A DNA stretch of 64,000 nucleotides. Source: Thysanoteuthis rhombus (taxonomy: Eukaryota > Mollusca > Cephalopoda > Oegopsida > Thysanoteuthidae). The stretch's first letter is position 1. Each line of letters starts with the position of its first letter. Positions 9,160 to 58,075 of this stretch are shown piece after piece. Where the stretch lies: positions 3,190,322-3,254,321 of the forward strand of contig OY735237.1 of assembly GCA_963457665.1 (NCBI GenBank). Reading direction: 5' to 3'. The position numbers and the translations under genes were made by a program. The notes under the pieces were generated by a model, which did not search any database, had not been told where the DNA came from, and worked only from the letters and a program-made list of their open reading frames with translations.

Positions 9160-9346
9160 GAATTCAAATGAAATTCATGAACAGCTATAGTCTTCGACGT
9201 CACTTCCTTTTGTCAACTTCCGCAAAATGGACGCCTGAATGAAGACTACCAGAAGCATCCAACAGATTATCACCGTAAATCCTAATCCATCCTATCTTCT
9301 TCAAATACACAAATCACCAAAGTTTATGCAGTCGATCATCTTGTAA
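9160..9346 (+). promoter_or_regulatory. Shared promoter and exon-1 module, copy A (ZNF-2)
   Basis: This is one of four copies of the same ~190-bp module. It holds a CRE-like CGACGTCA (9195-9202), an overlapping CACTTCCT ETS-like site, a second ACTTCCG site, and a YY1-like CAAAATGG. The presumed exon 1 ends at the donor CTT|GTAAGT (exon end 9341 or nearby). A conserved ATG lies 17 bases before the donor. No TATA box is obvious. Copies B, C and D are at 27.9, 43.6 and 58.0 kb. It points toward ZNF-2, about 5.7 kb away. The promoter role is inferred from the motifs and from conservation in front of paralogs. Confidence 0.65.
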
Positions 9347-9414
9347 GTATTTAAAGCTTTATTTTTTTTGATTGACTTCAAGAAATAGTCACAAGTTCAG
9401 TCTTTTTGATGTCC

Positions 9415-9600
9415 GCTTCATATTCGATCGTAATTAACTCATATTTAACGCATTTATTCACTCACTCCAAAGTTTATCGTTATTATCCATGTTGAATAAT
9501 TGAATACAATTTGTTGGCGATAGTTTGATAATTCGGTCAGTAAGTTTTCTATTCATTTTTTCTTATTGAGTTCTATTTTGTTTGTGGACATGAGAAATCT
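9415..9600 (+). promoter_or_regulatory. Conserved intronic block downstream of copy A
   Basis: It contains 'tattcgatcgtaattaactc', 'tccatgttgaataat', 'ttgttggcgatag' and 'ataattcggtc..taagttttctattca'. The same ordered blocks occur at about 28170-28330 and on the - strand at about 57810-57650. They are absent beyond the orphan copy C. This may be an intronic enhancer or simply recently duplicated DNA. Confidence 0.5.
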
Positions 9601-11899
9601 GTAATTGATATATATTCAAACGGCACAAACTGGGCCACTGAGAATACCTAATATAATGAAGCGGTGTCGACTATTTTGACTTCATGTGGCAAAAAAATAA
9701 AGTAAATTATTAAAAAATAAGTAAATTATTTTCAGCGACACCAATTCTTTTAAACAAGGCAACAAAATATGTCGCGTCTATCATTAATTGAATTGGAAAA
9801 AATGCTATTCTATACCTTCTTTTACTTTTGACTTGTGTGAGTGAAAATGTCCCCTGCTCAATTATCTCACACTCAAATGCCGGCCAGTAACCCAAATGTC
9901 ACTTGACACTATCATGATGCAAGATCAATCATCCTGTTAATGAAACTTAAATTACTGAAAAGTTCATGGAAAAAAATATCAAATCTTACCAAAATCTTTG
10001 ATATTTTGAGTGTAACATTGTGGCAATCAAGAACTACTAACTTCCAAAGTGCAAGAATTTAGAAATTTTTAGGTGATACTAGAAACTGACAAGCTTGGCT
10101 GCACTAAGGTCAAACTCCCTTGGTTCATTAAAGTCTAAAAAAGTATATAAAACAGAATTCATTTCTCCGTACAGTATTATTCCAAAACTATGTATCCCAT
10201 TCCAACTCTCTTATTAATATCTCCTGAAGATGGGATTTGCAAACTTTGGCTGAACAAGTCAACTTGAGTTAGGCTCTACAAGTGGGGGTGAATTAGTCAT
10301 CAGTTTTTGTGTATGTCATTACTCATTTTCCTTCTGATCATTGTCATCCATCATTATTACAAAAATAAGTCAAAACTCGGTAGTGAAAGTTTGATAAAAG
10401 AAAAGCCTACTCAGCCTAATGGTTTGTCCAACACTAGCGTCAAAAGCAAGAAAGAAAGGAAAGGCCTACTCTGCTAAATTGTTAATCTGCCACCAACCTC
10501 AAAAACAAGGGGGGAAAAAATTAAAAAAAATTTGCTCCTTGTTGGATTCAATCCCAAAATTTACTGATGTCCGGCAGAATGCCCAAGACCACTGTGCCAT
10601 GGAAACACTACTGAACATTGTAATTTATTTGTAATCATAAATAATATAGTTAGATGAAAACCTCAAATCACAGACGATTATTTACTGCCTCCTTAAAATG
10701 GTTTTTATATTGTTTAATGATTTTATTATTATGTTAACTGTTTTAATGACATCCTTACTGGCAAGGTGATTTTCCCCGAAAACAAAAAGATATATGTATT
10801 TTTGTTATCATATGAAAATATTTTTCATAACACAAATTCAATGTTCATAGAAAGAGAATACTGAAAACTAGGAAGTAACAGTTGACACTACACGACTTCA
10901 CTGAATCACTCTCTCTTTTCCACTTTCTATCAATTCTTTCGAGCATTGTTATAGTTGACTTTTGTATTCTGGGCTTTCTTTATAAGGTTATCATCTGGTT
11001 GCCAGTTATGAAATGGGATCTCAGACTCCTTGAATCTTGACTTCCTGGCTAAAATCTCATCTAAGATCATTGAAATTGTTTTGAATGGTCATTCTTTGCA
11101 ACAAAAATTTTGAAAAGCATGTGAAATGAACATGGAATCGTGATTACTAAAATCGGATTAAAAATTGTGTGGTATGACAAAATTGGGAGTTAAAAGGTCA
11201 GGGCAGTCGTAAATCAAATGAGTGGAGATTGGTTTTTGTGACCTGGAAATGATTTCTCTCACCACCCAGATATTTTTGCATCTTCATTCATGTATTATCA
11301 AACTTCAGTCCAAGTCTAGTGTTGACTTTGTTTCCATCTTATCATAACAACAAGAATAATCCTTGCCAAATTTAGAGGAGTAGACTCTTCCCTAATTGTC
11401 TCCAGTGTCATGTTTAAACCTGCCCGACTCATAAAATGAACATTTCCCTATCGTGATTTAAAATCACAATCAAGTGATTGATGGGTTGCTCTCTTACCGA
11501 CTTAGCCAAACTGACAAGGCTCGAAGAAATTTTATGATACAAATACACAAGAGCTTATTCCATTCTAGTATATAAATACATTTAATCATTAATTTGTCAG
11601 CCCCTTTCTCTGCGCGAGATCAAGTTCTGAAACAGCAAATCAGCAGTGAGAACCAGTTTTAATTTGTCATAATTGCATTTACTTTTGATTCTCCACTAGA
11701 TCAATATGCAATCCTGTAACAAAGGCATTCCCTTAGAGTTTCCAATATTCCAGGTTTTTTTTGGGGGGGGTTCTGTGCTTTCACTTGTTTTCTTCATACC
11801 AAGTGTGACAGATGGAATGACCCGCCAGTCATCCCTCCTGAATACCATTGAGCATAGCATGTGTTCTGTCTGAAATCTCTGGAAAGATAGATTTGAAGT

Positions 11900-12960
11900 T
11901 TGCAGTGTCACTCTGAGGAAGCTTCTTCTTGACCCTTCTCTCTAGTTTCTCCTTTTGTTTCTGCTACTTGATCCTTGCTAGGCTATCTGTATCTGAACTT
12001 CATGAATGAGCTTCAATCTATTTGACTTTTGTTTCTGCCTTACTCTTGAGTTGGTCTAGGTTATTATGCTTTCTTTTTTTTCATGTGCATATTTTCTAGC
12101 CATGAATGAACTTTCTAATCAGTCCAAGAAACTGCATTTGAAGGACTGCAGATTTGCTTGTAAATTCGTTCTTCAATCTTGCTGCAAGACTTCCATTTAA
12201 GAGCTATCTGTTTTCAAAGAAATCCAGGAAGAGGTCATGGTATTCATACAACTTACCCCATTTGTGAAACAGCTCATGTAGATAATTTGCCATATGCAAT
12301 GATACTTTGAGGAATTTTTGCCTCATCTAAAAAGGTTTTGAACACTTTTGGATCACTTATGTCATCTTTATAGTACAGTTTGTTAACAACTGGCACAATA
12401 TTTCCTACAAGGCAGTCCTTCCCAAAAGTCCCATCCCTTGCAGTGTCATTCTGTATGCACTTGCAGTAGTGACAAGACAGTGCAAGTGACAGTTGAACTC
12501 ATTCAATGTTTTACTTGAGGACTTCGCATTTGCTTCAGTAGCATTATTCACACCTGCTCAATCAATGAGGGTATTAGCTATGTAGTCAATGATTGTGGTG
12601 CCAAGAAACTGGTACTCCTCCTGATGAAAATCAATATACGTTTCAGCCAAGTGATCTATGGATGAAGTGATATAGCAGTGGTAATCATCTGCTATGCCTC
12701 CTGTAAGTTTGTTGATAGCAACATCATATTCTACTTCTGTGGTTAAATGAATACTGTCGATGTGGAACTCTTCTTGAGTGGTAGCGTCAAATTGAAAATT
12801 AGATTTTTCATGTCAGTTTGAGATTCTGCATTTTTAGATCCATGATGATATCTCATTTGTATGCCATCTGCTCTACTGTTGTTCACCTTAATCCTCATGT
12901 TGGTGATGTAGATTTTTTCACCCCATCTTTGCTCTCTTCTCATCTTCTGTTTTACTTTTC
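11900..12960 (-). pseudogene. Broken copy of a repetitive protein family (LTTE / GGxADDY type)
   Basis: Reading leftward, about 12755-12480 gives LTTEVEYDVAINKL, then GGIADDYHCYITSSIDHLAE, then YIDFHQEEYQ, then TLNEFNCHLHC. From about 12435 it reads FGKDCLVGNIVPVVNKLYYK. I recognise this order of motifs from uncharacterised, multicopy proteins in cnidarian, molluscan and fish genomes; that is from memory and not checked. Several interruptions show it is not functional. It lies antisense inside the ZNF-2 intron. The family is probably carried by a mobile element, but its function is unknown to me. Confidence 0.6.
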
Positions 12961-14409
12961 AAATCCTCCAGCTTATCATGCAATTTGCTTATTTCATTTT
13001 CATGCATTATTATCGTAATTCCCCATATATAATCCACTACCATAGATAATCAAAATTTTGATCTGATCGTTTTTTTCAAAGTGTCGGATATTTTGTAGCA
13101 ATATTTTTCATTCTCTAATGTACACAAGTTATGAGTGAGCATAGCAATTCCATTGAAATGACATATATCTGTTCTCATGGGAGTTAGGATAAATAGAGAC
13201 ATGTATGAAAGAAATTGATAGCAGCATAACTGACTATAAGCAGAATGTAGGGTAGGGGGAGTCAATGAGTTAATTGAATGAATGAACAGATTTGTTTTAA
13301 TATTAAAAAAATCTTGTGCTCTTTTAACCCTTAGCATGCCATCAGGACGTGTATAATTCCTCTTAGCTAAATTCGCATACATTTTCTTTTTTTTGTCTTT
13401 TATATAAAAAAAGTGAAGCAAATATCACCACAAGTGCCTTCTCTTGATAGTTGTTTTTAAAAGTTAGATGAGTTATTTACCTTTTGTATATCTCTTTTTT
13501 TTGTTTGTGAAAACAGATTTATTTGATTCATAAACTGTCCAAGTGGTACATAGTAGATACCTGCACACTTATGAAATCAAGCTGATTACATGTTTGTAAA
13601 TATAAAGCTCAAACTTCATGAAATATTGATGTTATGAGAAAAAAAATGTGGTAAAGAGAGAGAGATTGGAGAAAAATTCAAATATAAAATTATTTGTATA
13701 AACTATCCAAATTGTCAAATGTTAGTGTTTGAAAATTTGCTTCACATGAAAACCATAAGCTACAGATTTATGCACAAATGCTGCTTTGTAGTTTGAACAG
13801 ATTTTAAAACTGTTTCATCTTCAGTTCTGTACAGTTTATTCATATGAAGTTTATCGTATATTTTTCACCAATCCTTCCTCTCAGCAGTGTTACAAAAATA
13901 CATTTGAAAATTTTTGTACATCTATTTAAAAATGTGCTGTAACAATGATTGCTATCCCATATATTTGTGTTTCTTTCTCCTTCATTTCTAACTGTATATT
14001 TTTCCATTATTTTTCACTATAGATGGAATATTCATTAGTTGTTCTTCCATTTGATTTATATACTTTTATGGGTTTAGTGTAAATACATTGGAAATTATGA
14101 CGATGAGAAAATAGTAGCATGAATTTTTGGATCAGGTCAAAAATTTCCCTAGCTTAAAGCATGGGAAAATCTAGCAACAGGCTGGGGATAAAAGATTTTT
14201 TCAAATGATTGAATATCTGTAAAAGTTTGATAAGGAGTCATGGTCTGTATAACAGAGTAGTGGTCCAAGTCTCAAAGAGTCATCCAAATAACAAGATGGC
14301 ACTACCATTTAGACTTTCACAACCTCCTGTCTGGAGAGCACTTCTGTGAACTAGATGGCCTCTCTCATTATTGTCAACCCTGCTCTTTTTTTTTGGGGGG
14401 GGGGTACTT

Positions 14410-14640
14410 CCCTTTGAAACATTACAGTCATAACTGCAAGAAAATAGCATTAAGTTGCTTGTAAAAAAAAAAAAAAAAGATATGGTGTACTAATAGAAGA
14501 TTTCTGAGCAGATGAAGCTGTGTTTATGTTTTCAATAAAAAAAATGTTGATTCCACCATTCATTGCCTTTATTTAATCTTTTAGAGCCAGATCTATGTAA
14601 TTTTTTGTGCATTTATCCCTTTAGTTTCTATCTACTTTTT
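14410..14640 (+). repeat. Dispersed repeat family R1, copy 2
   Basis: It shares 'ataactgcaagaaaatag', 'agaagatttctgagcagat', 'ttgattccaccat' and 'gtgcatttat' in order with the R1 copies at 6.3 and 54.8 kb. It is shorter than those copies. Confidence 0.5.
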
Positions 14641-14879
14641 AGGTCTTATTCAATTCATCAAACCTTTCTTCTTATTTGTAGAGCAGGATATTTAGCTTCT
14701 GTTTGTGCAATTTATTTTCATTTAGATGAATGAATATTTTTCTGTCATTTACGAAACCAGTTTTAGTCGACTTAATCAAAATGTTTTCTCAAAAGTCTGT
14801 TAGAGTAGTTTCCCTTTATTGATGAAAAAAGTTCTGCAAATAATCAAGTTCATGAAATCGGACAGACTACTGTACTTGT

Positions 14880-14960
14880 CAAGGTATGATGGTTAAGCGA
14901 TCTTATCTTCCAAGCTCTCAGCCAATGTAATGAGTTTGATTCTCACTGAGTGGTTCATTA
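14880..14960 (+). repeat. tRNA-like SINE fragment (weak)
   Basis: A box-A-like TGGTTAAGCG (about 14890) and a box-B-like AGTTTGATTCTC (about 14933) are spaced roughly as in tRNA-derived SINEs. Both boxes deviate from consensus. No tail or target-site duplication was defined. Confidence 0.35.
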
Positions 14961-15089
14961 TTGTAGCCGTGTGCCAGACTAAACAAAACTTGGTAAAATA
15001 AAACTACATGTATCTTTTGCAATCTAATCTGAGTTCATATAATGTTAAATGTCTCCATTGACATATTTTCCATTGCTTTTCATTCACAG

Positions 15090-15366
15090 ATGTTCTGACT
15101 GGGGAAAAAACGTTTTGTGGTGTATGTATAAATCATTTAACTTCAAGACTGTCGACCTTGCATCAAAAACTTAGAATCACATTTGGAAAGTATTCTCCAT
15201 TCTCTAAAGTAGCTGTTAAAATTACACATGCAAATAAGCACTGGAAATGGGCATCATCTTCTTCACTGAAAGCATATTTAGGGGAATACAAATGCAGACA
15301 CCGGACAAAAACTATCTTTGTGACGTTTGAGAATTTTTTTTACACAAGTCATATTTTGTGGATGAC
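15090..15366 (+). other. 5' part of ZNF-2 exon 2 with decayed fingers
   Basis: The exon probably starts after the CAG acceptor at 15087-15089. It reads D-V-L-T-G-E-K-T-F-C-G-V-C at the start, a clear finger remnant with its linker. Further decayed finger-like pieces follow. An in-frame TGA at 15328-15330 separates this from the open array. It is likely 5' UTR. Confidence 0.6.
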
Positions 15367-16311
15367 ATGCTAGGAAATATGGGGGAGAAACCATATTCCT
15401 GTGAAGTCTGTGGATTAGCATTTGCAAGCAATTCAGCTCTAATGCGCCACATGCGAACGCACACTGGAGAGAAACCATACTCTTGTGAAACGTGTGGATC
15501 TACCTTTGCTGAAAAGTCAAATCTGGTGCGTCATATTAGAACACACACTGGAGAGAAACCATATTCTTGTGAAGTTTGTGAATTCTCTTCTGTAGGTATG
15601 TCAACTTTGGTGCACCATATAAGGGCACACAATGGAGAGAAAGCATATTCTTGTGAAATTTGTGGATATTCATCCGGAAGTAAATCACATTTTGTGAATC
15701 ATTTGAGAACACACACAGGAGAAAAACCATATTCTTGTGAAATATGTGGATCTACTTTTGCTGAGAAGAGAAATTTGGTTGATCATATGAGAACACACAC
15801 TGGAGAGAAACCATATTCTTGTGAAATGTGTGGATCTACTTTTGCACAGAAGTCCCACTTAGTGAGGCATGAGAGAAGACACACTGGAGAGAGACCATAT
15901 TGTTGTGAGACGTGTGGATCTAGGTTTGCAGATGATTCAGATTTAAGGAAACATAAGAAAAAACACACGGGAGAGAAACCATATTTTTGTGAAACGTGTG
16001 GATTTTCTTCTGCATGCAAATCACATTTGGTAAAACATATACGAACTCACACTGGAGAGAAACCATTTTCTTGTGAAATGTGTGGATTTTCTTCTGCTTA
16101 CAAATCAAGTTTGGTGTTACATATGCAAAGACATACTGGAGAAAAACCATACGTGTGTGAAGTGTGTGCATCTACCTTTTCACAGAAGTCAAATTTGTCA
16201 CAACATATGAGAAAACATACTGGAGAGAAACCGTATTCTTGTGAAATGTGTGAATCTTCTTTCGCAAAAAGATCTACATTGGTGAATCATATGAGAACAC
16301 ACACTCGTTAG
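15367..16311 (+). CDS. ZNF-2: C2H2 zinc-finger protein, 11 fingers
   Basis: The frame is open from 15331, but its first ATG is at 15367 (M-L-G-N-M-G-E-K-P), giving 314 residues. A GTG at 15358 is not a plausible start in an animal. Eleven fingers run from C12 to H312 at a 28-residue pitch. Fingers 3, 4, 8 and 9 have Ser at the usual core-Phe position and an aromatic residue two places earlier (G-F/Y-S-S), the arrangement known from ZFY-type fingers. Helix positions -1, 2, 3 and 6 read SSAR, ESNR, GSTH, SSHN, ERND, QSHR, DSDK, CSHK, YSSL, QSNQ and KSTN. It is the most divergent of the four paralogs (A-for-S after the core Phe, E-T-C or E-M-C knuckles). The array ends two residues after finger 11, where the linker GAG reads TAG. 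It has almost no leader. DNA binding is inferred; targets are unknown. Confidence 0.88.
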
Positions 16312-16720
16312 AAACCATAAACTTATAAAACTTGTGGATCATCTTTCACTCAAAAGTCAGGTTCGCTACATCTTAAGCAGAAACACTTGTAAGAAACCAC
16401 ATTCTTGTCAAGATTACAGATCACATATTTGCGAAAATCAAGTTTAGTGCAACGTGACAATGCATAGTGGACAGAAACCAAATTCTGGCAAAACTTGCGG
16501 ATCTTCCTCTGAGTCAAGTTTGATGCAACATATAACAACGCACTCTGTGAAAGAACTCTATTCTTGTGAAACGTGGATCTTTTTGTGCACCATAATGCAA
16601 AGACACTTGAAGAAAGAACTTATTCTTGAATAAATTGAAGGGTTATATTTGTGGGGGAAAAAAAACTGGTTTAATCCACCATATACAAACACTCACTGGA
16701 GGAGACCAATATTGGATTTT
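16312..16720 (+). pseudogene. Decayed fingers downstream of the ZNF-2 stop
   Basis: Right after the stop the sequence reads T-C-G-S-S-F-T-Q-K-S-G, a legible finger. At least three or four more degraded 84-bp units follow, with 'cttgtgaaacgtgg' knuckles and 'caacatat' helix ends. They fade by about 16710. The ancestral array was therefore longer. Confidence 0.75.
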
Positions 16721-17013
16721 GTCTTTTTGTTTGACTGCTAACATGGTTGATATCAAGAAGAAATTTCCTCATCATATAAGACGTGTCTCTGTTGAGACCA
16801 GATGGCCCCTTGTTGCCAAAGACTATTTCTACTTAAACCCCACAAACCCTGAAAATCTGCAACCTGAATCATTCATTGAGAGGTTTTAGAAAAATGCAAC
16901 ACAATTTAATGGACCAAAATTAATTTTTACTATTCACAATAATGAAATATAAACGTATTAAATGATATGAAAATTAGCAAAGTGATTTATGACTTGATAA
17001 TTGAATATTTAGA

Positions 17014-17016
<3 letters not shown>

Positions 17017-17066
<50 letters not shown>
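17017..17066. repeat. (TA)25 microsatellite
   Basis: A pure run of 50 bases of alternating T and A. Confidence 0.97.
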
Positions 17067-17068
<2 letters not shown>

Positions 17069-17542
17069 ATATATTTTTCCTTTTATCTTTATTGGTAAGT
17101 AATTTACTTGACACTTTTCCTGAAAATCCCATATACTGCTGATTGCTTGATAAAAACAAACATATGTATAATTTTCTCAGTTTTTTATGTTCTACACATT
17201 TTCATTCAGAAAATAATTTAAAATCTGTTCCTATATATACAGGCATCTCACCTGTCAGAGAGATTTACAAATTGTCTAGGAGTTTTGGAGATTTTCAAAA
17301 TCGTCCAAAATGTTAGGGAATTTTGTATATTGTTGGAAAAATCATCCCTCTTTTATATCCAACTGTCAAATCCTTCACATATATAAATTTTGAAAAAAAA
17401 ATTTTTTTTCATCGAATAAAACTGAAAAATTTTTTACATTTCCCTAACAATCTCATTGTGACCAGTGAGAGAGCTTCTCAACAATATTATGGAATGCACA
17501 TTAGTTCAATGCACTTCAGGTTTTCAATTCTAGTAATTTTGG

Positions 17543-17543
<1 letters not shown>

Positions 17544-17584
<41 letters not shown>
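17544..17584. repeat. (TA)n microsatellite
   Basis: A pure alternating TA run of about 41 bases. Confidence 0.96.
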
Positions 17585-17587
<3 letters not shown>

Positions 17588-17713
17588 TTCATATATATTT
17601 CAACACATCTGGATTTTGGCACATGTTTTGGACTTTTAGAAAAGCCTTTCGTAGCTTTGCTTTTTGCTGTCAAGTATATTTTTCAGAATCACTGGTTGTT
17701 GATATTTTTTATG

Positions 17714-17718
<5 letters not shown>

Positions 17719-17752
<34 letters not shown>
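17719..17752. repeat. (TA)n microsatellite
   Basis: A pure alternating TA run of about 34 bases, only 135 bp from the previous tract. Confidence 0.96.
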
Positions 17753-17755
<3 letters not shown>

Positions 17756-20602: not shown

Positions 20603-20629
20603 TATATATATATATATATATATATATAT
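20603..20629. repeat. (TA)n microsatellite
   Basis: A pure alternating TA run of about 27 bases. Confidence 0.95.
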
Positions 20630-21013: not shown

Positions 21014-21017
<4 letters not shown>

Positions 21018-21062: not shown

Positions 21063-21068
<6 letters not shown>

Positions 21069-24858: not shown

Positions 24859-24865
24859 CTCTCTC

Positions 24866-27914: not shown

Positions 27915-28096
27915 TATGAAAATTGATTAAAGCTTTAATCATGACTGACGTCACTTCCTTTTTCAAACTTCCGTAGAATAGATGCAATGTAAACAAGACT
28001 GTCTGGAAGCATCGAACAGATTATCGCAGTATATCCTAATCCATCCCATCTTTTTCAAATACACAAACCATCAAAGTTTATGCATTCGACCATCTT
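27915..28096 (+). promoter_or_regulatory. Shared promoter and exon-1 module, copy B (ZNF-3)
   Basis: It contains a perfect CRE TGACGTCA (27946-27953), an overlapping CACTTCCT, a second ACTTCCG, and a forkhead-like TGTAAACA (27989-27996). Exon 1 ends at 28096 before GTAAGT. The conserved exon-1 ATG is at 28080-28082. Upstream is a TGATTA..TAATCA inverted homeobox-like pair, also partly kept in copy D. It points at ZNF-3, about 6.7 kb away. The transcription start is not defined from sequence alone. Confidence 0.68.
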
Positions 28097-28169
28097 GTAA
28101 GTATTTAAAGCTTTATTTTATTTATCAACTTCAAGGTATAGTAACCAAGTCAATCTTTTCCATGATCGC

Positions 28170-28420
28170 TTCTTATTCGATCGTAATTAACTCATATTTT
28201 ATACATTCATTCAGTCACTTTATTGTTTATCGTTATAATCCATGTTGAATAATCGAATGAAATTTGTTGGCGATAGTCTGATAATTCGGTCTGTAAGTTT
28301 TCTATTCAATCTCTCCCTATTGTGTTTGTTTCATTTGTAGACATGAAAAACCTTGACTTCTCAGTCCTTCCAGGGTTTAGTAGCAAATTTTAACTAATTA
28401 GAAATCCATGAACTCATTAG
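28170..28420 (+). promoter_or_regulatory. Conserved intronic block downstream of copy B
   Basis: It matches the block after copy A and, more extensively, the - strand block after copy D (about 57810-57560). Matches include 'gacatgaaaaa', 'acttctc..gtccttcc' and 'tagtagcaaatt'. Shared length beyond the donor is about 320 bp for B versus D. It could be regulatory or just duplicated intron. Confidence 0.5.
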
Positions 28421-29919
28421 AAAATTTGAATTATGATTCTTCACTTCTGTTATTCCTTGGTTTGTAGCAAATTGGAAATCCATAGATTCATTATTACAAA
28501 ATCATTAAGCTTTACTAAGAAGTAAACAATACAATTTTCTTCTTTTTTTTCTCCGCAAAATGTTTTACCGTCCTGGGAGGTAATATCGGCCTCCTCCTAA
28601 CACCGGCCACCCGAGGTTTTGGATGTTTTAGGACTTGTAACATTTAAATAAGATTAATTTATTCAAGATGCCAGTCAAGGGGTCTTATTTTACAGGAAAA
28701 ATCGGATCTCTTTGTTCATAACGATCAACAATGATATCACTCAATGGAAATCGTTAAACAGTAACTATTCCCCTCTTTAAGTAAGGATTGTAGCTTGTAA
28801 CTTCAGAAAGTTGAATTTATTATCACAAACTACAAACCATATACTCATATTTGTGTTGATATTTTTTCCTGAGAGCCAAACCCAAATTCATAAAATCATT
28901 TTTTTTTAATTAATTATTAAGTGACACAAATATCAGCATAATTTAGTAGAGGTAAAATCGGTACTTTTTATCTTTGAAAGGCGATTTTATGAATTTTGGT
29001 GAGAGTTTTTGAGAAAAAATATCAACATGAATCGAGTATATGGGTACTATTTTGAATCAATGAATTCAATTTTTCAAGTTACACTCTATAATACTGCAAC
29101 ACTTACCTTCCAAGAGGAGAGATGTTATTGTGTCGCGATTAGAGATGAGTGACACTAAACAAGCGATCACTGTAAATTGTTGTTAACACAAACATAACAA
29201 TAGTCCCATTAAATAACACTTGACTAGTAGCTTGAATAAATTACTATCATCCCCAAAATATGATTACATTTTAATGTTCATTTTTTAATCTATAATATTA
29301 TGGATGTGGTGAAACTTTTGAAATCCATATATTGTCACTAATTGATTTTATCCTAAAATCACTCATGAATGTCCTTGATATGGTACCTACCATAGTCCAG
29401 CTGTTAAAGGTCACATATTGTGAGAATTATACAAAATTATGAAAGTATCAGCCAATGAACCATCATATGTCAAGATCAATATAAGATAAGACGACATTTG
29501 ATCTGATGCATGTTTCCCATTTTTGATGGGCTTCTGTATTTTTCTGTAATTTGCATTAAACACGTATGAATGTAAAACAATGTAACCTTTTTTAAGAATT
29601 TTTTAAATGTATAGAATCTTAATTCCAAGTATCAAATTCAAGTATTAATATTTACGTGTTTGATGTCACATTTGAAATTTTATTTACTCATGTATTTAAA
29701 AATCGAATTTTTAGAAAATGTTGCCATAAAAAAAGTTTGTAGGAGTTATCTCCTTTCGATTGGTTTTCAATTATAAAAAAAATGTCTTGAGTATCAAGTT
29801 ATAGTTCAAGAAGTACGGTTTGGAGTTAGTGCTATACATAGGCCATAAAAAGATTTTGTCTCACCACGATTCTATATACATGTAAATCTTGGCTCAGCTA
29901 TACCAGAACCGAAAGTAAC

Positions 29920-31175
29920 CCCAATCCACGTTTTCAAACTAATCCAAAGGACCAGCTAATAGAATGGCTTTGTGAGGTGAAAGTCTTGTTTCAAAAGGAT
30001 TCCTGTGAAGATGATGAATTTATTTCAGGCCACAAAAAGTCCTCAATCTATCCCATGAGCACTTTGCTTCTATTGCCTCTGAAAGTGTTCTCACAGAACT
30101 GATGATGATTCATGCATTGAATGTAATTGCAATGACTATCAATCATCTAAATCCCACTCAAGCCTCTGCATTCTTTTATGACCAGCTACTGTTTGCCGTA
30201 TCAAATTATCTGCAATGGAAACACTTGGAAACTCATGACAAAGATTTTGGATATGATTGGTGGTCTGCACATTGAAATGAATTCTGGGAGATCTGCTAAT
30301 TGATAGAGGGTGGACAATAGCCCTTGTGCAGGCAAAACTGACTACATCTGGTCACTACAGAAGCATTGGGCATTCTGTGTTAGATGGCACATGTAGCATA
30401 CATTGAAACCAATTCTGACAACCTGACTTTCAGTGGCAGAAAGGAATGATACATGAAGAGCCTGATGAAAATATCTTGTATTCATGTAGTTGTCCTTGCT
30501 GTGATTTTCTTTGATAGATTGAATTTTGAAGAGGTGCGGATAGCTTTTGGGATTAAGAAGAATTACAGGTATATCTCAGTCAATGATATCTGTACAAAAC
30601 TTGGTAGTCTAAAAAGCAAAGCTATACTGATGTTTGATGTGCCATTGGAGTGTGATTTGCATCATTCTTCTATGGAAAAGGGGGAAAAATCAGCATGGGT
30701 GGTGTATGTTCCACTTGGAGATCCATTCGTAGCACTCTCTGAAATGCCAAATGATGTGAGTGATACTCTGCCAGATAAGATTGAAATATATGTCATGTAC
30801 AATGAAACATGTTCCTTGAGTTGGGTTAATGGAGCTAGGAATAAGCTATTTGGTCATGGATCGCATTTCATTGAAAATATTCCACCAACTCAAGCAGCAT
30901 TTTCACTGCAGATCAAATGTTTTGTGTATCAGCTGTATGGTGCGAAATTCATACTGCCCAGTCAGTCCTCCTTGACTCATCCAACTGGGGCTTGCTGTAC
31001 AGTGACTCAACATGGTAACCACACTGGACCAACCTCCCAGGAGCATTTGGAACAAAAACTTCTCTGGTGGCTGCAGAGGTTGCTGTGAGTGTGAAGAGGC
31101 TCAGTAACAGTGCATTGAACTTTGTTTCTGTCAAGGAGCTTGCTAGTATGTGAAGAAATTGATCACATATGTAAA
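29920..31175 (+). pseudogene. Broken copy of a repetitive protein family with a PIN-like GCDT region and Cys-rich tail
   Basis: About 30140-30450 reads L-N-P-T-Q, then Q-W-K-H, then the region matching the G-G-L-H-I-E-M motif, then A-L-V-Q-A. From 30453 a 211-residue frame reads RLNFEEVRIAFGIKKNYRYI, then KSAWVVYVPLGDPF, then IENIPPTQAAF. Past it, about 31060-31150 reads G-G-C-R-G-C-C-E-C and C-I-E-L-C-F-C, a Cys-rich tail. I recall this motif order from multicopy uncharacterised proteins of many invertebrates and fish. The usual T-G-C-D-T site is eroded here (L-E-C-D-L). Multiple interruptions show it is a relic. Function is unknown to me; PIN-like is only a suggestion. Confidence 0.62.
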
Positions 31176-34761: not shown

Positions 34762-35061
34762 ATGATCCAGCTAAGAAAGAATATTGTGTAATAGTTCAAT
34801 TTTTAAAAACTCAAAAACTCTCACTGGGGAGAAAATATATTTTCTTGTGAACTGTGTGGATCTTCCCTTTTTTTCCGTTAAATCAAGAGCAAAATTTGTT
34901 CAAAAACACGCTGGGGACAAACCATATCTTGTGAAATTTGAGGTGATGTATGGAACTGAAAATGAATTATTTTCATCTGTAGTTTGTAGATCTCCATTTT
35001 CATGGAATATTTCATGAACTTGAATTATTCGGTGAATTAGACTTTCATCATAAAGTGAAGT
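34762..35061 (+). other. 5' part of ZNF-3 exon 2: decayed leader and fingers
   Basis: The exon begins GATGATCCAGCTAAGAAAG after the acceptor. Across frames it reads D-P-A-K-K-E-Y-C, then S-S-I-F-K-N, then T-L-T-G-E-K, then S/C-E-L-C-G-S-S. That is the same order as the leader and finger 1 of the intact ORF that starts at 35062. The leader-plus-array unit therefore seems duplicated in the exon, with the first copy decayed. A TGA at 35056-35058 is in frame before the ATG. Confidence 0.6.
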
Positions 35062-36126
35062 ATGGAAAACTGCCCAGAAAAAGAATATTGTAGATGTAAA
35101 TTGTCTAGTTCAAATTTGAAAAAACTTACTGGTGAGAAACCATATTCTTGCAAACTGTGTGGGTTCCCCATTTCGCAGAAATCAGATTCGGTGATGCATA
35201 TACGTACACACACTGGAGAAAAGCCAAATTCTTGTAAAGTTTGTGGCTCTTCCTTTTCAAGGAATTCAACCTTGAAACGACATATGCGAATACACACTGG
35301 AGAGAAACCATACTCTTGTGAGGCGTGTGGATCTTCTTTTTCACAGAAGTCACATTTGGTGAGGCATATGCGAACACATACTGGAGAGAAGCCAACTTTG
35401 AGTCAGCGTAAGGGAACACATACTGGGGGTAAACCTTATCTTTGTGAAGTGTGTGGCTCTTCCTTTTTGCAGAATTCACATTTAATCCAACATATGCGAA
35501 CACACACAGGAGAGAAGCCATATTCTTGTGAAGTGTGTGGTGCCTCCTTTTCACAGAAGTACAATTTGAACCAACATAAAAGAACGCATACTGGAGAGAA
35601 ACCATATTCTTGTGGAGTGTGTGCCTCTTATTTTTCAGACAATTCGTGTTTGATCCGACATATGCGAACACACACTGGAGAGAAGCCATATTCCTGTGAA
35701 TTGTGTGGCTCTTCCTTTTCACGAAAGTATACTTTGACCCGACATTTGCGAACGCACACAGGCAAGAAGCCATATTCTTGTGAAGTGTGTGGCTCTTCCT
35801 TTTCAGAGAATTCAGATTTGATCAAACATATGCGAACACACACTAGAGAGAAGGCATATTCTTGTGAAGTGTGTGGCTCTTCTTTTTCACGAAAGGAACA
35901 TTTGTTGTGGCATATGCGAATACACACTGGGGAGAAGCCATATTCTTGTGAAGTTAATAGCTCTTCTTTTTCACAGAAGTCCAATTTGATCAAACATATA
36001 CGAACACACACTGGAGAGAAACCATATTCTTGTGGAGAGTGTTATTCTCCCATAGACAAGTTGAATTTAAAGCAACATATGCTCTCAAACACTGGACAGA
36101 AATTATATTCATCTGTAGCATACTAG
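35062..36126 (+). CDS. ZNF-3: C2H2 zinc-finger protein, 9 intact fingers with internal damage
   Basis: The protein has 354 residues. A leader (C4, C10, C12) leads to finger 1 at C30. Fingers 1-3 start at C30, C58 and C86. A fourth has lost 14 residues, leaving only its helix end at residues 112-120, with the frame kept. Fingers resume at C128 and run at a 28-residue pitch to the one at C268. The next (C296) has Asn for its second Cys. The last (C324) has a shortened loop and Asn for its final His. Nine fingers keep all CCHH ligands. Helix positions -1, 2, 3 and 6 of these read QSDM, RSTR, QSHR, QSHQ, QYNQ, DSCR, RYTR, ESDK and REHW. One linker is TREKA and one TGGKP. The ATG has A at -3 and G at +4. 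It is probably expressed but eroding at the C-terminus. No effector domain is visible. Confidence 0.86.
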
Positions 36127-41700: not shown

Positions 41701-43559
41701 CATAATCAGGACTGACTGACTGATGAGTGCCTTAGAGAAATTCATGGACAAATCTAAAGAAAGCCTCTTGAAAAAACAAATGCTTAACATATGACTCATT
41801 TTTATTTATTTTGAAAATCAATTGAATATTCTATAAATGATTGCAAAGCAGTTGACAAATGAATCACATAACCTTTTTCCTTCTGCTTTCTGTCCTTTAA
41901 CATATTGGGAACCAACCAACTGAAAAGTGTCTTATAGAGATACTTATTTTGTTTCTGTTCATCTTGATGTTCATGTGTCAAAGACTGGATTAATGATAAC
42001 TTTTGTGTGAAAAATGATCCATAATATTATTCAGCTAGTTCCAATCAATCAAAGGATGCAATCAGGCAAATATTTACATAGTAAATTACACATCGGTTGT
42101 TGTAAAGACACACAAATTAGGGGTACAGAAGGCATGACAGTTGGCCTACAGACCAAAGAACCTGTATGTATACTGTGCGGAAAAAGATCATAATAAAAAT
42201 AATTATAAGGTTTCGGTTTAAAAAGCCTAAATTTGAAACTAAGAAAGTAAAACTTTGGGCATCACAGATCCAGACATTTCCAAATGTAGTAAAAAAAAAT
42301 CCTTCTGAGTAGTTCTTTTGTTAGTGACTTCATATCTTTGTGAAGTAGGATTTTCATACCTACTTCATAAAATTCTTCATGAAACTGGTGCCTGCAGACC
42401 TCTTGGGGTCCATAAAAATGCTCAGGGGGTTCACATTAGTATTCCGTCTCAACTCACATTGTGAATCTTATGGCTGAGAAACATAATCCATCGTGAATGA
42501 AAAATATAATTTTACACAGCCTTGAACTCAAATAAAAGTAATCCATTTAAAACAAAGGACTAAGATTGGTTTTCATGGTAGTTCATGAGGTAATTGTTTG
42601 GAGTGAGAGAAATATTTGCACACATGGATATAAATTAGATTTTTCCATTTTTCATTTCTAGCTACTTTCAACTAACTTTATAGCTAAAAAATATTGAGTA
42701 CGATTGAAAATACTGAAATATATAGATATTTGAATTTTATATTCATAAATATATCATTTAACAGCTATTAAGTACGCTCAAAAACATGATGGCTCCTGAA
42801 ATCTTGGAAAATTTGAACATTAATTATAATTGATTATTAATTATGATTTATCATAATTTTTTTGAGTTTGCTTGACATTGATTAGTATGATCAAGAATAC
42901 ATACAAAGACTTCAATGAATGATGAAAGTAAAGTATTATTGATCTGGTCTTTCAATGATATATCTTTCTATTAAAATTTGAGCGTAAATAATTATTGGAG
43001 CCTTTGCATGATTTTTCGACCGTATTTAATATTGAGTGGTCACAAATTAACACAATGAGAAAATTTAAAAACTGTTTTATTAAATTCAAGAAAGTATATG
43101 ATTAAGGGTTGGATTTTAAGATTGCAGTTACCAGTATGAGATAATTATTCATTCATCCCAAAACCGTAACTCCAAACCTACCAACTAAATTTAAAACTAA
43201 ACTATTGAAAATAACCATATTTCAGCATCGGTGAAAATCTAGCCATTTAAAATGGCTAATTACAAAATTTGCTCTTAGTTCAACGGTAGCAGCAGCTTAA
43301 GCGTCTATCTTGATTATCTCTCCTGCAAAATATCGGCATCTTCTTTAATCTTATCAATGACAAACTATTATCAGTCATTAATTAATTACTTTGAAAATGC
43401 AATGATAAAAATAGATTATTCCCTTCATAGAAGTGATCCTTGAATTTTTTTGGAACCATTAGCCAAGATGTTCAAGATGACATGCGAATAGCACCAATTC
43501 GAATTGTTACATTTTGTACAAGTTAATAGATAAATAAAACTTTGAATACTTATAAGATG

Positions 43560-43720
43560 GTGGAATGCATAAACTTTGGTGGTTTGTGTATTTAGAAAAG
43601 ATGGGACGGATCAGGATTTACGGTGATAATCTGTTTGACGCTTTAATCCTGTTTACATAGCGTTCATTTGGGTGAAATTGAAAAAGGAAGTGACGTCAGC
43701 TATGATTGAAAGTTTGATAA
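43560..43720 (-). promoter_or_regulatory. Shared promoter and exon-1 module, orphan copy C
   Basis: On the - strand it has a perfect CRE TGACGTCA (43691-43698) overlapping CACTTCCT, the TGTAAACA motif, and the exon-1 body including the conserved ATG ('agtttatgcattccacc'). At the exon end the donor reads CTT|ATAAGT instead of GTAAGT. Homology stops about 45 bp further on, and the conserved intronic block is missing. No finger exon follows on the - strand within 7 kb. It may be a broken gene remnant or a promoter now driving an unspliced transcript. Confidence 0.65.
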
Positions 43721-51189: not shown

Positions 51190-51369
51190 AATCTACCCTC
51201 GTGTGCATATGCATGAAAGGGAAGAGCACACATCATGAGAATATGGTTTAATTCAAATGTGTGTTCTTCCATGCTGTGTGAAAGTCGCCTTTTAACCTGT
51301 GATTGTATATGCTACAATAAATGTGACTTTTCTGAAAAGAGCCAATTACTTGACAAAGTACAGCTTCTC
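51190..51369 (-). pseudogene. Decayed fingers downstream of the ZNF-4 stop
   Basis: Past the stop the frame continues E-K-L-Y-F-V-K, then F-R-K-V-T-F-I, then G-x-K-A-T-F-T-Q-H-G-R-T-H. These are two clear finger remnants at the 84-bp period. Then homology fades. Confidence 0.75.
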
Positions 51370-52476
51370 TCAAGTGTGTACACACGTATGCCTCACCAAA
51401 TAGGACTTCCGTGAAAAAGAAGACCCACACACATCACAAGAATATGGTTTCTCCCCAGTGTGTGTTCGTGTATGTTTAATCAAATGTGACTTCTCTGAAA
51501 AGGAAGAGCCACACACTTCACAAGAATATGGCTTCTCTCCAGTATGTGTTCGCATATGTCCTGACAAATGTGATTTTCGCGAAAAAGATGAGTGGCACAC
51601 TTCACACGAATGTGGCTTCTCCCCAGTGTGTGTTCGCATATGCCTTACCATGTGTGACTTCACTGAAAATGAAGAGCCACACACTTCACAAGAATATGGC
51701 TTCTCTCCAGTGTGTGTTCGCATATGTACCACAAAATCTGACTTCCGTGAAAAGGAAGAGCCACACATTTCACACAAATATGGTTTCTCTCCAGTGTGTG
51801 TTCGCACATGCTCCAACAAATGTGTCTTTTGTGAAAAAGAAGAGCCACACATTTCACAAGAATATGGCTTCTCTCCAGTGTGTGTTCGAATATGTTTGAT
51901 CAAGGCTGAATTTACTAAAAAGGAAGACGCACACACTTCACAAGAATATGGTTTCTCTCCAGTGTGTGTTCGCAAATGTTTGTTCAATGTTGACTTCTGT
52001 GAAAAGCAAGAGCCACACACTTCACAGGAATAGGGCTTCTCTCCAGTGTGTATTCGCATATGTTTGATCAAATCAGAATTCCCAGAAAAAGCAGACCCAC
52101 ACACTTCACAGGCATACGGTTTCTCTCCAGTGTGTATTCGCATATGACGAATCAAGTCTGAATTACCTGAAAAAGAAGACCAACATACTTCACAAGAGTA
52201 TGGTTTCTCTCCAGTGTGTGTTCGCATATGTTTATTCAGGCTTGACTTTTGTGAAAAAGATGAGGCACACACTTCACAAGAATATGGCTTTTCTCCAGTG
52301 TGTGTTCGCATATGCACAATGAAATAAGACTTCCGTGAAAAGGAAGAGCCACACACTTCACAAGGATATGGCTTCTCCCCAGGATGAGTTTTCAAGTTCT
52401 TTTTGAAATTTGAACTATTAGAAAATTTACACCCGCATGTTCCAGAACAACAATTTTTTTCTGAACATTTTTCCAT
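51370..52476 (-). CDS. ZNF-4: C2H2 zinc-finger protein, 12 fingers
   Basis: The protein has 368 residues and is the best preserved of the cluster. A Cys-rich leader (C4, C9, C10, C14, C16; then N-S-S-N-F-K-K-N-L) is followed by twelve CCHH fingers from C39 to H367 at an unbroken 28-residue pitch, with TGEKP linkers. All zinc ligands are present. Helix positions -1, 2, 3 and 6 read RSYV, QSSK, GSDR, GSDK, QSTK, VSAK, QTHE, RSDV, VSHR, RSHG, ESHK and RSYR. The ATG has A at -3 and G at +4, and TAA lies in frame at -6 to -4, as in ZNF-1. The stop is the linker Gly codon read as TGA, the same position in the linker as in ZNF-1. A nuclear DNA-binding role is inferred. No repression or activation domain is visible. 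Confidence 0.9.
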
Positions 52477-52786
52477 ATTTTACTTCTGTGCAGCCACGAA
52501 AAAAAAAAACAAACTAAAATATTCAAATTCAACAGATTGTTCAAATTCATGAAATATTTCACGAGAAGGAAAATCCATTCAGACCAGTTGAAGATAGCAT
52601 GTTTTGTTCAAAACTTGACTTCAGTAAAGTCATATTCCTCACAAGAATATGGGTTGCCTCCAGTGTTTTTTTTTAACAAATGCTGCCCTTGACTTCATGA
52701 AAAGGAAGATCTACAGTTTATGAGAATTCAATTTTTTTTTTCAAATTCATCTATCAGACAATACAATTTCAACCTAGCAGGAACAT
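52477..52786 (-). other. 5' part of ZNF-4 exon 2, decayed
   Basis: It starts after the acceptor TTCTATTTACAG (reverse complement at 52787-52798) as GATGTTCCTGCTAGG. It matches the ZNF-3 exon start block by block ('gatcttcc.tttt', 'gtcaag.gcagcatttgtt', 'ccatattcttgtga', 'gaaatatttcatgaa'). It is too decayed to code and is likely 5' UTR. Confidence 0.6.
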
Positions 52787-53040
52787 CTGTAAATAGAATA
52801 AAAATTTAACTTCAAATATGATAATTTGATAAATTAATTATATTATATCATGAACTCACTTTATATTTTGATAGACTCTGTAATATCAAATTTTTATACA
52901 GTAATTCCCATTATTATGAAACAGACCCTCAAAAGACTGAAAAATGAAGGTTTGGCAGGAGAAAAATTAAAAGTTCAATGTTATAGACTTAGTCTTTAGT
53001 TTTCAATAATGAGTGCATGAATTAAAAATGGTCAATATTG

Positions 53041-53470
53041 GTCTCTTCAGTTTTCAAAGTGGTCTGGCTCGCTATATATTCATATATGATGCGCACAGGC
53101 TGTACTCATGCACTTTGGGGGCTTAAAATTCAAACATTTACTCCTTACGTCTAGAGAAAAAAAAAGTTTCTTATTCTTTGGAAATTCCTGCATAAATAAG
53201 TCAATTTAAAATGCTAAATTGATCCTTCAGTTTGCGCCCGGCAGCATTCACACTTCTTTTTTGAAAATTCAGACTCTTTAATAATCATTACCCAACAAAA
53301 TTGAAAGAGAAAAAGTCATTAATCAGCTGCATCATTTGCACAGTTTGTAAGAGCAGGACAGTTCAACTGAATTTTTAAATTTTTAAAAGTCGTAATCATT
53401 TTATTGATTTTTCATTTTTTCCATCAGAAACTTTCAGCAGATGCCAAACAGACTTGATAACAAAGCCACA
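53041..53470 (+). repeat. Dispersed repeat family R3, copy 1
   Basis: It shares 'ttcagttttcaa.gtgg', 'tggct.gctatatat', 'gggctgaaaattt.aacattt', 'ctccttac..ctagagaaaa', 'aaattgatcc' and 'caacaaaa..gaagaa' with copies at 59276-59700 and 60010-60440, in the same order and orientation. Confidence 0.65.
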
Positions 53471-54779
53471 TTTCATCAATAAAATGCCTTAGACTAGAAA
53501 CGTTAATTTTGTGATTATCTGTTACTGAAAAAAATGATTGCAGGAAATTTTCCTCTAAAAATTATTTGCCTAAACAGTATAAACTGAGACATGTGTTTGA
53601 AAACTTATGTTTACACTTAAAAAAACTGGTGTAACATAATAGTTAACTTAGCATATTTAGTCCAAATCACAGGCCTTGAATTTAAAAAAAAAAAAAAAGG
53701 ACTAAATACCTACCCAAAAAAGGAATTTATAAAATAGAAAGAAAGCTACATGGAAATCAATGGGAATTAATCTGCCCGTTACGTATTTAGTCTAGTGAGG
53801 AAAAAAAAAAAAAAATGTGTCATCACATAAAAAAACTGTCCCTCATAAATTTGGAATTGAAAAATATTCTATGATAAAAGTACCAAAAATGTTGTGAAAA
53901 TCAATGGATATCCGATTTTTCATAAAACTTTAGGAATTTATTTTTTTTGCTGTTGAAATTCAGAAAATTTCCAAATGCAAATCAGAACATGTTTTGATCA
54001 CACTGCTACAGCTTTTTGCATAATATTTCATCAAAATATCTGTTTCTATAAGCAGAACACAAATAATTTTTATCTCAGATTTTTTCCCAATCTTTCGTCT
54101 TACTACCGCAACAAACATTCCAAAAAATTAAATTTTCTTCAATTTTTTTGTAAAGTGTCTATTTCAGGTAAATTTTTTAGCAAAGTTTATAGGTCTACCT
54201 TTTCAAAAGTGAAACCAAATAAAACTGTACATAAGACTCAAAGTTTGGAAAGATTAAACAACAATTTTGATACAAGTTTACTCGCATAATTAAGTTAATT
54301 TGGAGTAAATTCAAAAGTAGAACGCTTAAGAATTGATTTTTATGATTTATTGTAACGACTAAATATCTTGTGTCGTTTCAATTTTGGCTTTAATTACAAC
54401 AAAATAGCATTAAAAAGGAAACAATATTTTTGGTATTTGAAATTGGTTTTAGATTGTTTTAAAATGCTTTTACATTTCTAGCAACAAATTACTTTGAATC
54501 CATGGTGATGAATATGTCATCAGGAGAATGAAAGTGCTTTTGAAAAAATTATTTAATGTTTGATTGGCAGGAATTTGGAGAAATAATGCTGACATTTTAC
54601 TTGAAATATAGTGAAAATTACATTTGTCGACAGGATTTGTCTGTTTACCTGTTAACACAGTTCAAAAGGTCAAGTAGTAGTTCAACTTCCCCTGCTTATG
54701 GCCAAAACAAATTGATATCACAGGAAATTGTTCATAAACAGCAACAACAGAAATGTAGGCTTTTCAGTTTCTACTTGTA

Positions 54780-55115
54780 AGAAAGAAAAAAAAATCTTTG
54801 CATATTCACAGAAGATTTCTGAGCAGATTGATGTTGTTTTTACTTTTTTTGATTGAAATTAGTATCGATTCCACCATAAATGAAAGATATGTGATCAGAA
54901 AAAATGAAGTTCTAAAATGTTAGATTACCATATGAATTACTGCATTCACTCATTTATTTGCACATTTACAATTTGGGGATGGCAAAATGTTTGCTTATTG
55001 TTTATTGTGTATGATTTATAGGTTTTTGGGGTGGAGAGTGAGGGGTCCAGCAAAAATTATTCATTGATTTTTGTATTCACGGATCCTTAGTGTGCTTGAC
55101 TCCTACAATAACCAA
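54780..55115 (+). repeat. Dispersed repeat family R1, copy 3
   Basis: It shares 'agaagatttctgagcagatt', 'attccaccataa', 'catttatttgcacatttaca' and 'ggtccagcaaaaat' with the copies at 6.3 and 14.5 kb. Confidence 0.6.
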
Positions 55116-55204
55116 GAGATAACCCTATATATTTTTTCATCAACAACTTGAGCCAAAATTGGAAACAAAAAACAAAATAAGGCAAATAAAAAAAAAATAA
55201 ATGG

Positions 55205-55680
55205 TAATCCTTGGTTTGCAGAGCCAAAATTTTAGTTGGCTATAAAATGGCTATTTCTGGTTTTAACATAAGACTCCATCTAAACCCCACAGACAACATT
55301 ATTAGGGAGGGGAGCAGGATTAGGCCTAGAGTTAAGTTACTTCTTCAAATGAAATCTTAAAAAAAAAAAAAGAAAAAAAAGAAGAAAGTCATCACATTGT
55401 TTCTTCTTTGACTGGAAATTGAATAAATTTCTTTTTTCTCTTGCAATGATTTTGTCTTGCTATTTAAAATTAAATCTTTCATAATGAAAAGAACTAAGCC
55501 TAAACCCTACCCTACCAACCAATATATCACCATGCAGTCCTCAACCTAATTGTGACCCCACCTAAATCATATGCTGTCTGCTTGGTTTAGATCTAATCAA
55601 ATGTTAAAACCAGAAATGGCCAATTTTATACCCAAAGTTATCCATAAATGGCCTTTTTATAGCCAACCAAAATTTATGGA
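55205..55680. mobile_element. Foldback element with ~80-bp inverted arms
   Basis: The left arm 55210-55290 has 'ttagttggctataaaatggc', 'tatttctggttttaacata' and 'tctaaacc..cagac'. The inverse of 55560-55680 repeats these in order ('ttggttggctataaaaaggc', 'atttctggttttaacattt', 'tctaaaccaagcagac'). The interior of about 280 bp has no ORF. Similar 'gggctattttatggcca' wording occurs at about 63877-63895. Confidence 0.65.
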
Positions 55681-57559
55681 TAAATCAAAATGGAACTAAT
55701 CCTATTTTTCCGTCTTCTGTAACAGAGTGGTGAAGTTGTGACCAAACTTCCGATTCCAGTTGGGATTCTAAATTAGTACAAGGAGAATCATACTTGTTTC
55801 TTTTTATGTTGTTTTCTAGGTTATTTTGATTTTAATTTTGCGTAATTTGCCCGTATAGGGCATACTAGATGAAAAATCAAAAACTTTTAGAGATTTTTCA
55901 TCGATTTTACCGCCAGAGAGCTGACAACAGAGGCGTAACAAAGCCAAGCAAGTACACAGCCAGCATGGTTCAATGTTTGGTAGCTAATTGCAATCACAGA
56001 TCTGATCGTAACTGTTGCAAATATTACAGATTTTGTAGAGAGGAGAGACAATTTCAGCACCAGTTATACAGCCTTATAACTTTGAAGAAATATTTCTAGG
56101 CTAAAATAGAAGCTTGTAGGTGTCATAGCAACAACAAAACCTGACCAAGTTAGTTGTACATTATGAGCTAATAAGAGTCTGTGTTTAGCATACGTCATGT
56201 TAAAATAGGACCTAAATTTAAAAAGGAAAAAAAAAAAAGATACAGTAATTAGAACATGAATTTTTAACTTGTATAGTTAATTAACCGATTTGAAAAAAAA
56301 AATGTTCTACACAGCCAGGTAATTTGACAGATGTCTGACATGCAAACTTTATTTAGCTACAACTTTTTTGACAAAAATCAAAACATCAGAAAAGAGTGAT
56401 CTTACTGTAATAAACTTTGTATAAATCATGAAGAATGATTATAGAGAGTTTTCGTGCGGAAGTCATTTCTGTGAACAGGCAAATTCTGATAAACCAGTGT
56501 TTTGAAACATGACATTTAGGAAGAGACAAAAAAAAAAAAGAAAAAAACAACAAAAAAAAACACTTGATGTGTCAATTTGCATTCATTGAAAAATATATTG
56601 CCCAGTCAGAACACAGATTCTGCATTCATTACAAGAGAAGATCAGATCTTCGCAATCGGTAACAAAACATTGAACCATGATGGTTGTATGCTTGTTTTGC
56701 GACACCTTTGTCTTCTATTTTCTGATGGAAAAATGGAGAGAAAAAAAAATTTTTTTCAATATCAATAAAAAAAAATATCACTGAACATCATCAAATTAAA
56801 GCTGAAATGACCCTGAAGACCCCCCCCCCCCAAAAAAAAGAGCAAATTTCTCCTAGTACTACTTAGGTAGGGATTGAATTCCAGCTGGAACCGGAAGTTT
56901 GTCAAGACATCAGACTTTTTCACTCTACTATTTTCAATTCATCATTTAGATAAAAAAAAAATACATGCATACAAGTAGATATATCCAACACAGACCAATC
57001 ATTGCATGATCCCCCACCAAAAAAATTCCAAGTGCTGGGAGGAAAATCGGGGAGGGGGGGGGCTTTCAAGCGGGTCTGGCAGCATGGTTCCCGAGAAAAT
57101 TTTGAAAATTACGTATTCAAGATTAATGATTTGCGTTTCTAGGGTATTTCACTGGATTCGAGCGGTCTAATTAAAACATTTTTTCAATATCTAAGATAAG
57201 ATTTTCAACAAGAATCTAAACCAATCAAATAAACCTAACAATTTTTGTTAAATGCGCGAGATTTTTCCTTTCGTGCATTTGAGTGTATCTCAAAATGTGT
57301 ATGTCAATGGTATTCCCGTTTCTAATATTCAATTTAATAGTAAACAATTCAACATTTTCTGCAGTTTTTCCATTCTTATATTTTTCGGCGTATTTAGATA
57401 TTTCAACCCTACTGCAGTTGATTTCGGTGATGGTTAGTTCAGCTGGCGATGTTTTTCGAAAAAATTGCCAAGCAGACACCAAGTCCATTGCCGATACGGG
57501 CTTTGAGAATTTAAAAAATAATCCATGTTCACTAATTTGTGAAACTTTATAATTCAGTA

Positions 57560-57810
57560 ATGATAAGCCCAATAATTTCCAATTGGTTCGAATTTGCTAC
57601 TAAAACCTAGGAAGGACCGAGAAGTAAAAATTTTTCATGTCCACAAATGAACAATTAAACACAATATGAAAGAAATAAAAAGAAAACTTACAGACCGAAT
57701 CATTAATCTATGAACAACAATTTTTTTTCAATTATTCAACATGGATTTTAACGATAAACAATGAAGTAACTGAATGAATGTATAAAATATGACTTAATTA
57801 CGATCGATTA
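57560..57810 (-). promoter_or_regulatory. Conserved intronic block downstream of copy D
   Basis: On the - strand it matches the blocks after copies A and B: 'cgatcgtaattaa', 'tccatgttgaataat', 'cattcggtctgtaagttttct' style, then 'gacatgaaaaa' and 'tagtagcaaatt'. The same caveat applies as for the other copies. Confidence 0.5.
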
Positions 57811-57887
57811 TGAAGCGGTCATCGAAAAGACTGACTTTGTTACTATTTGTTGAAGTTGATTAATAAAATAAAGCTTTAAATACTTAC

Positions 57888-58075
57888 AAAATGATCGAAT
57901 GCATAAACTTTGGTGGTTTGTTTATTTGAAAAAGATGGGATGGATTAGAATTTACAGCGATAATCTGTTCGATGCTTCTGGCCATCTTGTTTACATAGCG
58001 TCCATTTTGCGGAAGTTTAAAAAAGGAAGTGACGTCAACTATGATTTTAGGTCTAATCAATTTTCATAGAATTTA
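57888..58075 (-). promoter_or_regulatory. Shared promoter and exon-1 module, copy D (ZNF-4)
   Basis: On the - strand: CRE TGACGTCA (58030-58037), overlapping CACTTCCT, ACTTCCG, CAAAATGG and CAAGATGGCC (YY1-like), and TGTAAACA between them. Exon 1 runs to 57888 before GTAAGT and contains the conserved ATG 17 bases upstream of the donor. It points at ZNF-4, about 5.1 kb away. It is the most motif-complete of the four copies. Confidence 0.68.

Follow-up and report, generated by a model that had tools for sequence, protein, structure and literature searches.

Do clustered C2H2 zinc-finger (ZNF) genes share a single promoter and first exon, and has that module been held by selection or merely copied recently? 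The question is raised by a 64,000-nucleotide stretch of the squid Thysanoteuthis rhombus (the window, C42:3190322-3254321), for which an earlier note had proposed such a module. We followed the module through the window and through the 2.73-Gb, 514-contig assembly. Our preferred reading, to which we give a probability of about 0.75, is that the module represents the promoter, a non-coding exon 1, its donor and the first ~260 intron bases of a multiplied C2H2 family, and that it is kept by selection.

Modules and finger genes in the window

The 17-mer TGACGTCACTTCCTTTT is found at 9195-9211 (plus strand, one mismatch; module m1), 27946-27962 (plus; m2), 43682-43698 (minus; m3) and 58021-58037 (minus; m4), compared with a mean of 0.28 and a largest count of 3 in 100 dinucleotide shuffles. 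At each site a CRE overlaps an ETS word (CGACGTCACTTCCTTTT in m1). A profile of 29 copies, built with m1-m4 among them, matched all four modules at E ≤1.1e-30; its next match had E 1.3, and no fifth module was found in the window with this profile. All four copies proposed earlier are therefore present. When aligned, m1, m2 and m4 are 80-82% identical to each other over ~480-570 bases, and m3 is 71-77% identical to the others over shorter stretches. In the four-copy alignment no invariant run is longer than the 16 columns of the CRE/ETS word, which end at 27962; column shuffles reached this length in 2.8% of cases over 240 columns and in 0.005% over the upstream 110 columns.

Downstream of this word we placed a putative exon 1, whose 5′ end is provisional in each case, at 9220-9342 (plus) in m1, 27971-28096 (plus) in m2 and 57888-58012 (minus) in m4. 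Each exon is followed by the donor GTAAGTATT, at 9343, 28097 and 57887 (minus), and the conserved block continues ~260 bases into the intron (9343-9606, 28097-28357 and 57622-57887, respectively). The orphan module m3 (43545-43698, minus) has the CRE/ETS word and the exon body but reads ATAAGTATT at the donor place (43553); its GT donor is lost, and fingers are likewise absent, as none were found downstream on its own strand. The expected exon body with its usual donor was thus seen in three of the four modules.

All four ORFs with fingers in the window match PF00096 and PF13465 far above cut-off, identifying them as C2H2 poly-zinc-finger genes, and no KRAB- or ZAD-type N-terminal domain is present among their Pfam matches. 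By a strict pattern, gene A has 8 fingers (finger exon 1712-2776, plus; proposed acceptor 1712, ORF from the ATG at 2009), gene B 11 (15090-16311, plus; acceptor 15090, ATG 15367), gene C 9 (34762-36126, plus; acceptor 34762, ATG 35062) and gene D 12 (51370-52786, minus; acceptor 52786, ATG 52476). A pyrimidine-rich acceptor lies upstream of each, reading ACAG|ATGATCCAGC in A and C, ACAG|ATGTTCCTGC in D and ACAG|ATGTTCTGAC in B. By eye, remnants of degenerate fingers can be made out between acceptor and ATG in three of the genes (A, B and C). We find a module upstream of all four finger exons, that of gene A lying just outside the left end of the window (C42:3187688, donor at window position -2506). 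Splicing from donor to proposed acceptor would remove introns of 4,218 bases in A, 5,747 in B, 6,665 in C and 5,101 in D, and the last three agree with the proposal that three modules lie 5 to 7 kb upstream of a finger exon. Two further features lie in the intron of gene C: an old palindromic element of 600 bases (28648-29250), which aligns at 62% when compared with itself in reverse complement, and a 212-codon open frame (30450-31088) for which Pfam gives nothing at E 0.001.

Copies across the genome and their finger arrays

An exact search of the genome for the 17-mer gives 37 occurrences, 4 of which are on C42, against 2 for the reversed control. With module sequence as the query, we observe copies at at least 63 places on 8 contigs, 34 of them on C42, with the best ~40 matches of each search scored and ten of the 63 places coming from the intron-block query alone. 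Of two short patterns, one has 18 matches, 12 of them among the 63 places, and the other 13, with 7 among the 63; neither reversed control has any. From such candidate places a crude recapture puts the copy number at about 95-117, or at about 58 if the first pattern is scaled by its 9/29 frequency.

We tested 31 copies for downstream fingers: the four of the window, L009-L028, the copies on C47, C17 and C10, L033-L035 and the minus-strand copy on C5. Altogether, 29 of the 31 have a C2H2 array on the same strand, beginning ~2 to 9 kb downstream, including three of four in the window, all 20 of L009-L028, all three of L033-L035 and those on C47 and C17. L033-L035 were draws 2-4 of ten made at random from 34 then unexamined places, the first draw having been left out because its array was already listed. 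Two of these arrays are degraded: that of L033 is broken, with two strict fingers, and that of the C5 minus copy, assigned by position, holds two stops. The C10 copy has no finger array within 9.5 kb downstream, and the C5 plus copy, outside the 31, has none within the 5 kb examined. Six further copies beyond the 31 have an array by position alone. The earlier note had reasoned that a module found genome-wide with no ZNF link would be just a repeat, and these counts show the link instead.

The arrays are also co-oriented with the modules. No opposite-strand array was found at the 20 top non-window copies, and for 14 of the 63 modules a co-oriented array is listed in the next 10 kb downstream, compared with none in opposite orientation and with a mean of 2.6 (largest 8) in 1000 trials in which positions were shifted by 20-100 kb and strands randomized. 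Since the copies descend from one another, the shared orientation of the 29 does not amount to 29 independent events. Viewed from the fingers, where the best 111 of 9,004 first-look candidates were scored, 14 of 108 arrays have a module within 12 kb upstream among the matches listed for both, and 10 of 13 on C42. The other 94, again among the matches listed for both, have none, which counts against our model; outside C42, either many finger genes are without a module or their module lies beyond the matches listed. Many of the listed finger arrays fall at ~48-62 Mb of C17, in a cluster that is larger than that of C42 and that contains few of the best-scored modules.

Splice words accompany the modules in most cases. 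A GT donor is present in 28 of 29 copies and GTAAGTATT in 24, and 17 of 25 module-bearing finger genes have an acceptor with a matching exon start (ATGTTC or ATGATCC), giving putative introns of 1,534-8,735 bases; the remaining 8 have no acceptor word.

Further side observations concern other parts of the assembly. On C5, two modules lie in head-to-head orientation, separated by little sequence (L029:4616-5220, C5:9299048-9299652); the CRE is absent, and the ETS-like word ACTTCCGC occurs on both sides as an inverted repeat, making a two-way promoter possible. The assembly encodes haemocyanin domains of mollusc type, with 52 matches compared with none in any of 14 control genomes, and rhodopsin exons with 94%, 88% and 79% identity to a squid rhodopsin matching PDB 2z73, which fits a squid. 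At C25:56607734-56625492 we found nine equal-score haemocyanin-domain matches at ~2.18 kb spacing; these could be a tandem array of recent origin or an artefact of the assembly.

Selection, copying and other explanations

Similarity among the modules is sharply concentrated. In 29 copies, the mean frequency of the commonest base is 0.91 for the last 85 exon bases and 0.93 for the 20 bases that open the intron. It then declines through the intron start (0.80 and 0.75) to 0.47 at +300 to +400, and upstream, over the CRE/ETS stretch, it is 0.67. For the 17 genes with both module and exon-2 ends, mean pairwise identity reaches 83-89% from -80 to +20 around the donor, drops to 64-77% as far as +260 and is 34-53% further on. 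Near the finger exon, values are 53-69% for the 140 bases that precede the acceptor and 47-75% for the opening 200 bases of exon 2. The mean p-distance in these genes is 0.17 for exon 1, 0.31 for the first intron bases and 0.36 for the exon-2 acceptor region, which agrees with the earlier claim that the finger part has diverged more than the module. It is mildly surprising that a non-coding leader should be better kept than the start of the finger exon. Rate variation among sites is stronger in exon 1, where the gamma shape is 1.75, than around exon 2, where it is 4.7. The intron block has been retained in L014 and L031 but sits deeper in the intron, by ~0.85 and ~1.9 kb respectively.

The earlier note left a choice between constraint and recent copying, and the latter is the alternative that survives best. 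If the modules were alike through recent copying or gene conversion among paralogs, selection would not be needed, and closer copies on C42 are indeed more similar (Mantel r 0.32, p 0.0096, 21 copies). Local conversion could also cause the disagreement that we observe between module and finger-exon trees: when each topology is fitted to the other data, label-shuffled ones do as well or better in 93 and 95 of 100 cases, although both trees are star-like and weakly supported, giving the comparison low power. Module and exon-2 distances likewise show no clear correlation (Mantel r 0.21, p 0.17), so that a single, always co-inherited unit does not emerge from these data. However, copying does not readily explain a sharp peak of similarity on the exon core and donor in place of a plateau, nor an exon core that is 82-84% identical between copies on different contigs, nor the rest of the intron, which in the 17 genes is mostly unalignable or 66-80% identical in patches. 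The most diverged copy of the window is m3, the one without donor and fingers. Taken together, the conservation profile, the displaced intron block and the lack of both codon periodicity and RNA pairing favour selection, and we regard copying or conversion as an unlikely sole cause, while the likeness of neighbouring C42 copies still fits some of it.

Another possibility is that exon 1 codes for a conserved piece of protein N-terminal to the fingers, in the manner of KRAB or ZAD. This would be consistent with the few indels in the last 93 exon bases and with the one frame that is stop-free there in 16 of 29 copies. However, the remaining 13 copies have a stop in this best frame, and the minor-base frequency is the same at the three codon positions (0.101, 0.099 and 0.094; 29 copies), revealing no codon periodicity in the exon core. 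Additionally, reading by eye, we found that in genes A and C the frame hits a stop directly past the proposed junction, and that in A, C and D the ORF with fingers has an ATG of its own, placed just after a stop. A coding exon is thus very improbable. A structured RNA leader was also rejected, as no pairs are predicted for the 29-copy exon alignment and no Rfam family reaches its gathering score within the window. Finally, a dispersed repeat or mobile element lying near finger genes by chance would suit the ≥63 copies on 8 contigs, the finger-less m3 and C10 copies and the head-to-head pair, but it has very little credence against a co-oriented array at 29 of 31 tested copies; together with the modules of all four window finger exons and the acceptors of 17 of 25 genes, this link points to a putative promoter and first exon, not a free repeat.

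A putative shared leader with a variable promoter

We therefore return to the reading of a promoter and non-coding leader kept by selection. The C2H2 family would have multiplied by duplication of the whole unit, often in tandem. Transcription would begin in the ETS/YY1-like stretch or shortly before it, and splicing would join a leader of ~110-125 bases, across 1.5 to 8.7 kb of intron, to a single finger exon that contains the complete array, its start codon and a short 5′UTR. Purifying selection would keep the leader core and donor, and the intron start less strictly, whereas the upstream promoter, the bulk of the intron and the finger exon would have changed.

The promoter words are indeed far less constant than the exon. 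We find a promoter CRE in 15 of 29 copies, a count that leaves out L009 and L021, whose match is the exon word GGACGTCA, and the exact ETS/CRE overlap GACGTCACTTCC in 12 of 29, including all four of the window. The overlap therefore holds for every window copy as first described, but with a commonest base of 67% at the CRE/ETS word against 91% in the exon core, the CRE was rejected as a constant of the family. Further factor words also fit the window better than the family, with forkhead words in 9 and AA[AG]ATGG in 18 of 29 copies, and are patchy even within the window, where TGTAAACA occurs in m2, m3 and m4 and the AA[AG]ATGG word in m1 and m4 only. A TATA word is present in 4 of 29 copies (120 bases scanned), which does not fit a TATA-type finger-gene promoter. 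In five copies (L009, L019, L021, L026 and L030), none of which has a promoter CRE, GGCNACACTG or a close variant stands at a similar position upstream of exon 1; these five may simply be related to one another. GGCNACACTG resembles what we take to be a Drosophila promoter motif (Motif 1). In sum, the ZNF link and the less diverged module proposed in the earlier note stand, and the CRE as a feature common to all copies does not.

Comparable arrangements exist elsewhere. In clustered protocadherin genes a shared promoter element is present separately at the start of every tandem paralog, and the module family appears similar in this respect. The overlap of ETS and CRE recalls the motif G/CCGGAAGTGACGTCA in the available part of PMC3464117: its reverse strand here is GGAAGTGACGTCA, with the same overlap, but the core 11-mer CGGAAGTGACG is absent, the window copies reading AGGAAGTGACG with an A before GGAAGT, and the motif is found in about half of our family only. 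Clustered finger genes of zebrafish likewise are paralogs with a common promoter type; however, in the portion of PMC10547256 available, those of the early wave have a clear TATA box, whereas the constant of the squid family is the leader exon. We found no paper on a shared leader of this type in a literature search of partial coverage.

Very large, clustered C2H2 families are described for coleoid cephalopods in the accessible parts of PMC12513265 and PMC13218726, the largest family of the latter being confined to decapods. These expansions were described there by protein trees and expression and not by a shared leader exon or promoter. According to the same part of PMC12513265, paralogs of one expansion clade are spread over different co-expression modules, which speaks against simple co-regulation, and a switch in the regulation of duplicates is predicted. 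A more speculative and rather doubtful extension of our reading is that the core, donor and intron start form a family-wide handle that is read at the DNA or RNA level, perhaps by finger proteins of the family, with the variable promoter setting the place of expression of each gene. If so, the output of dozens of finger genes would be set together. Whether cephalopod C2H2 duplicates share or switch regulation is the question posed by PMC12513265, as far as its available text goes, and the leader makes it directly testable. As a defined element with dozens of copies, a constant core and a variable promoter, the leader also helps in placing the 5′ ends of such genes during annotation.
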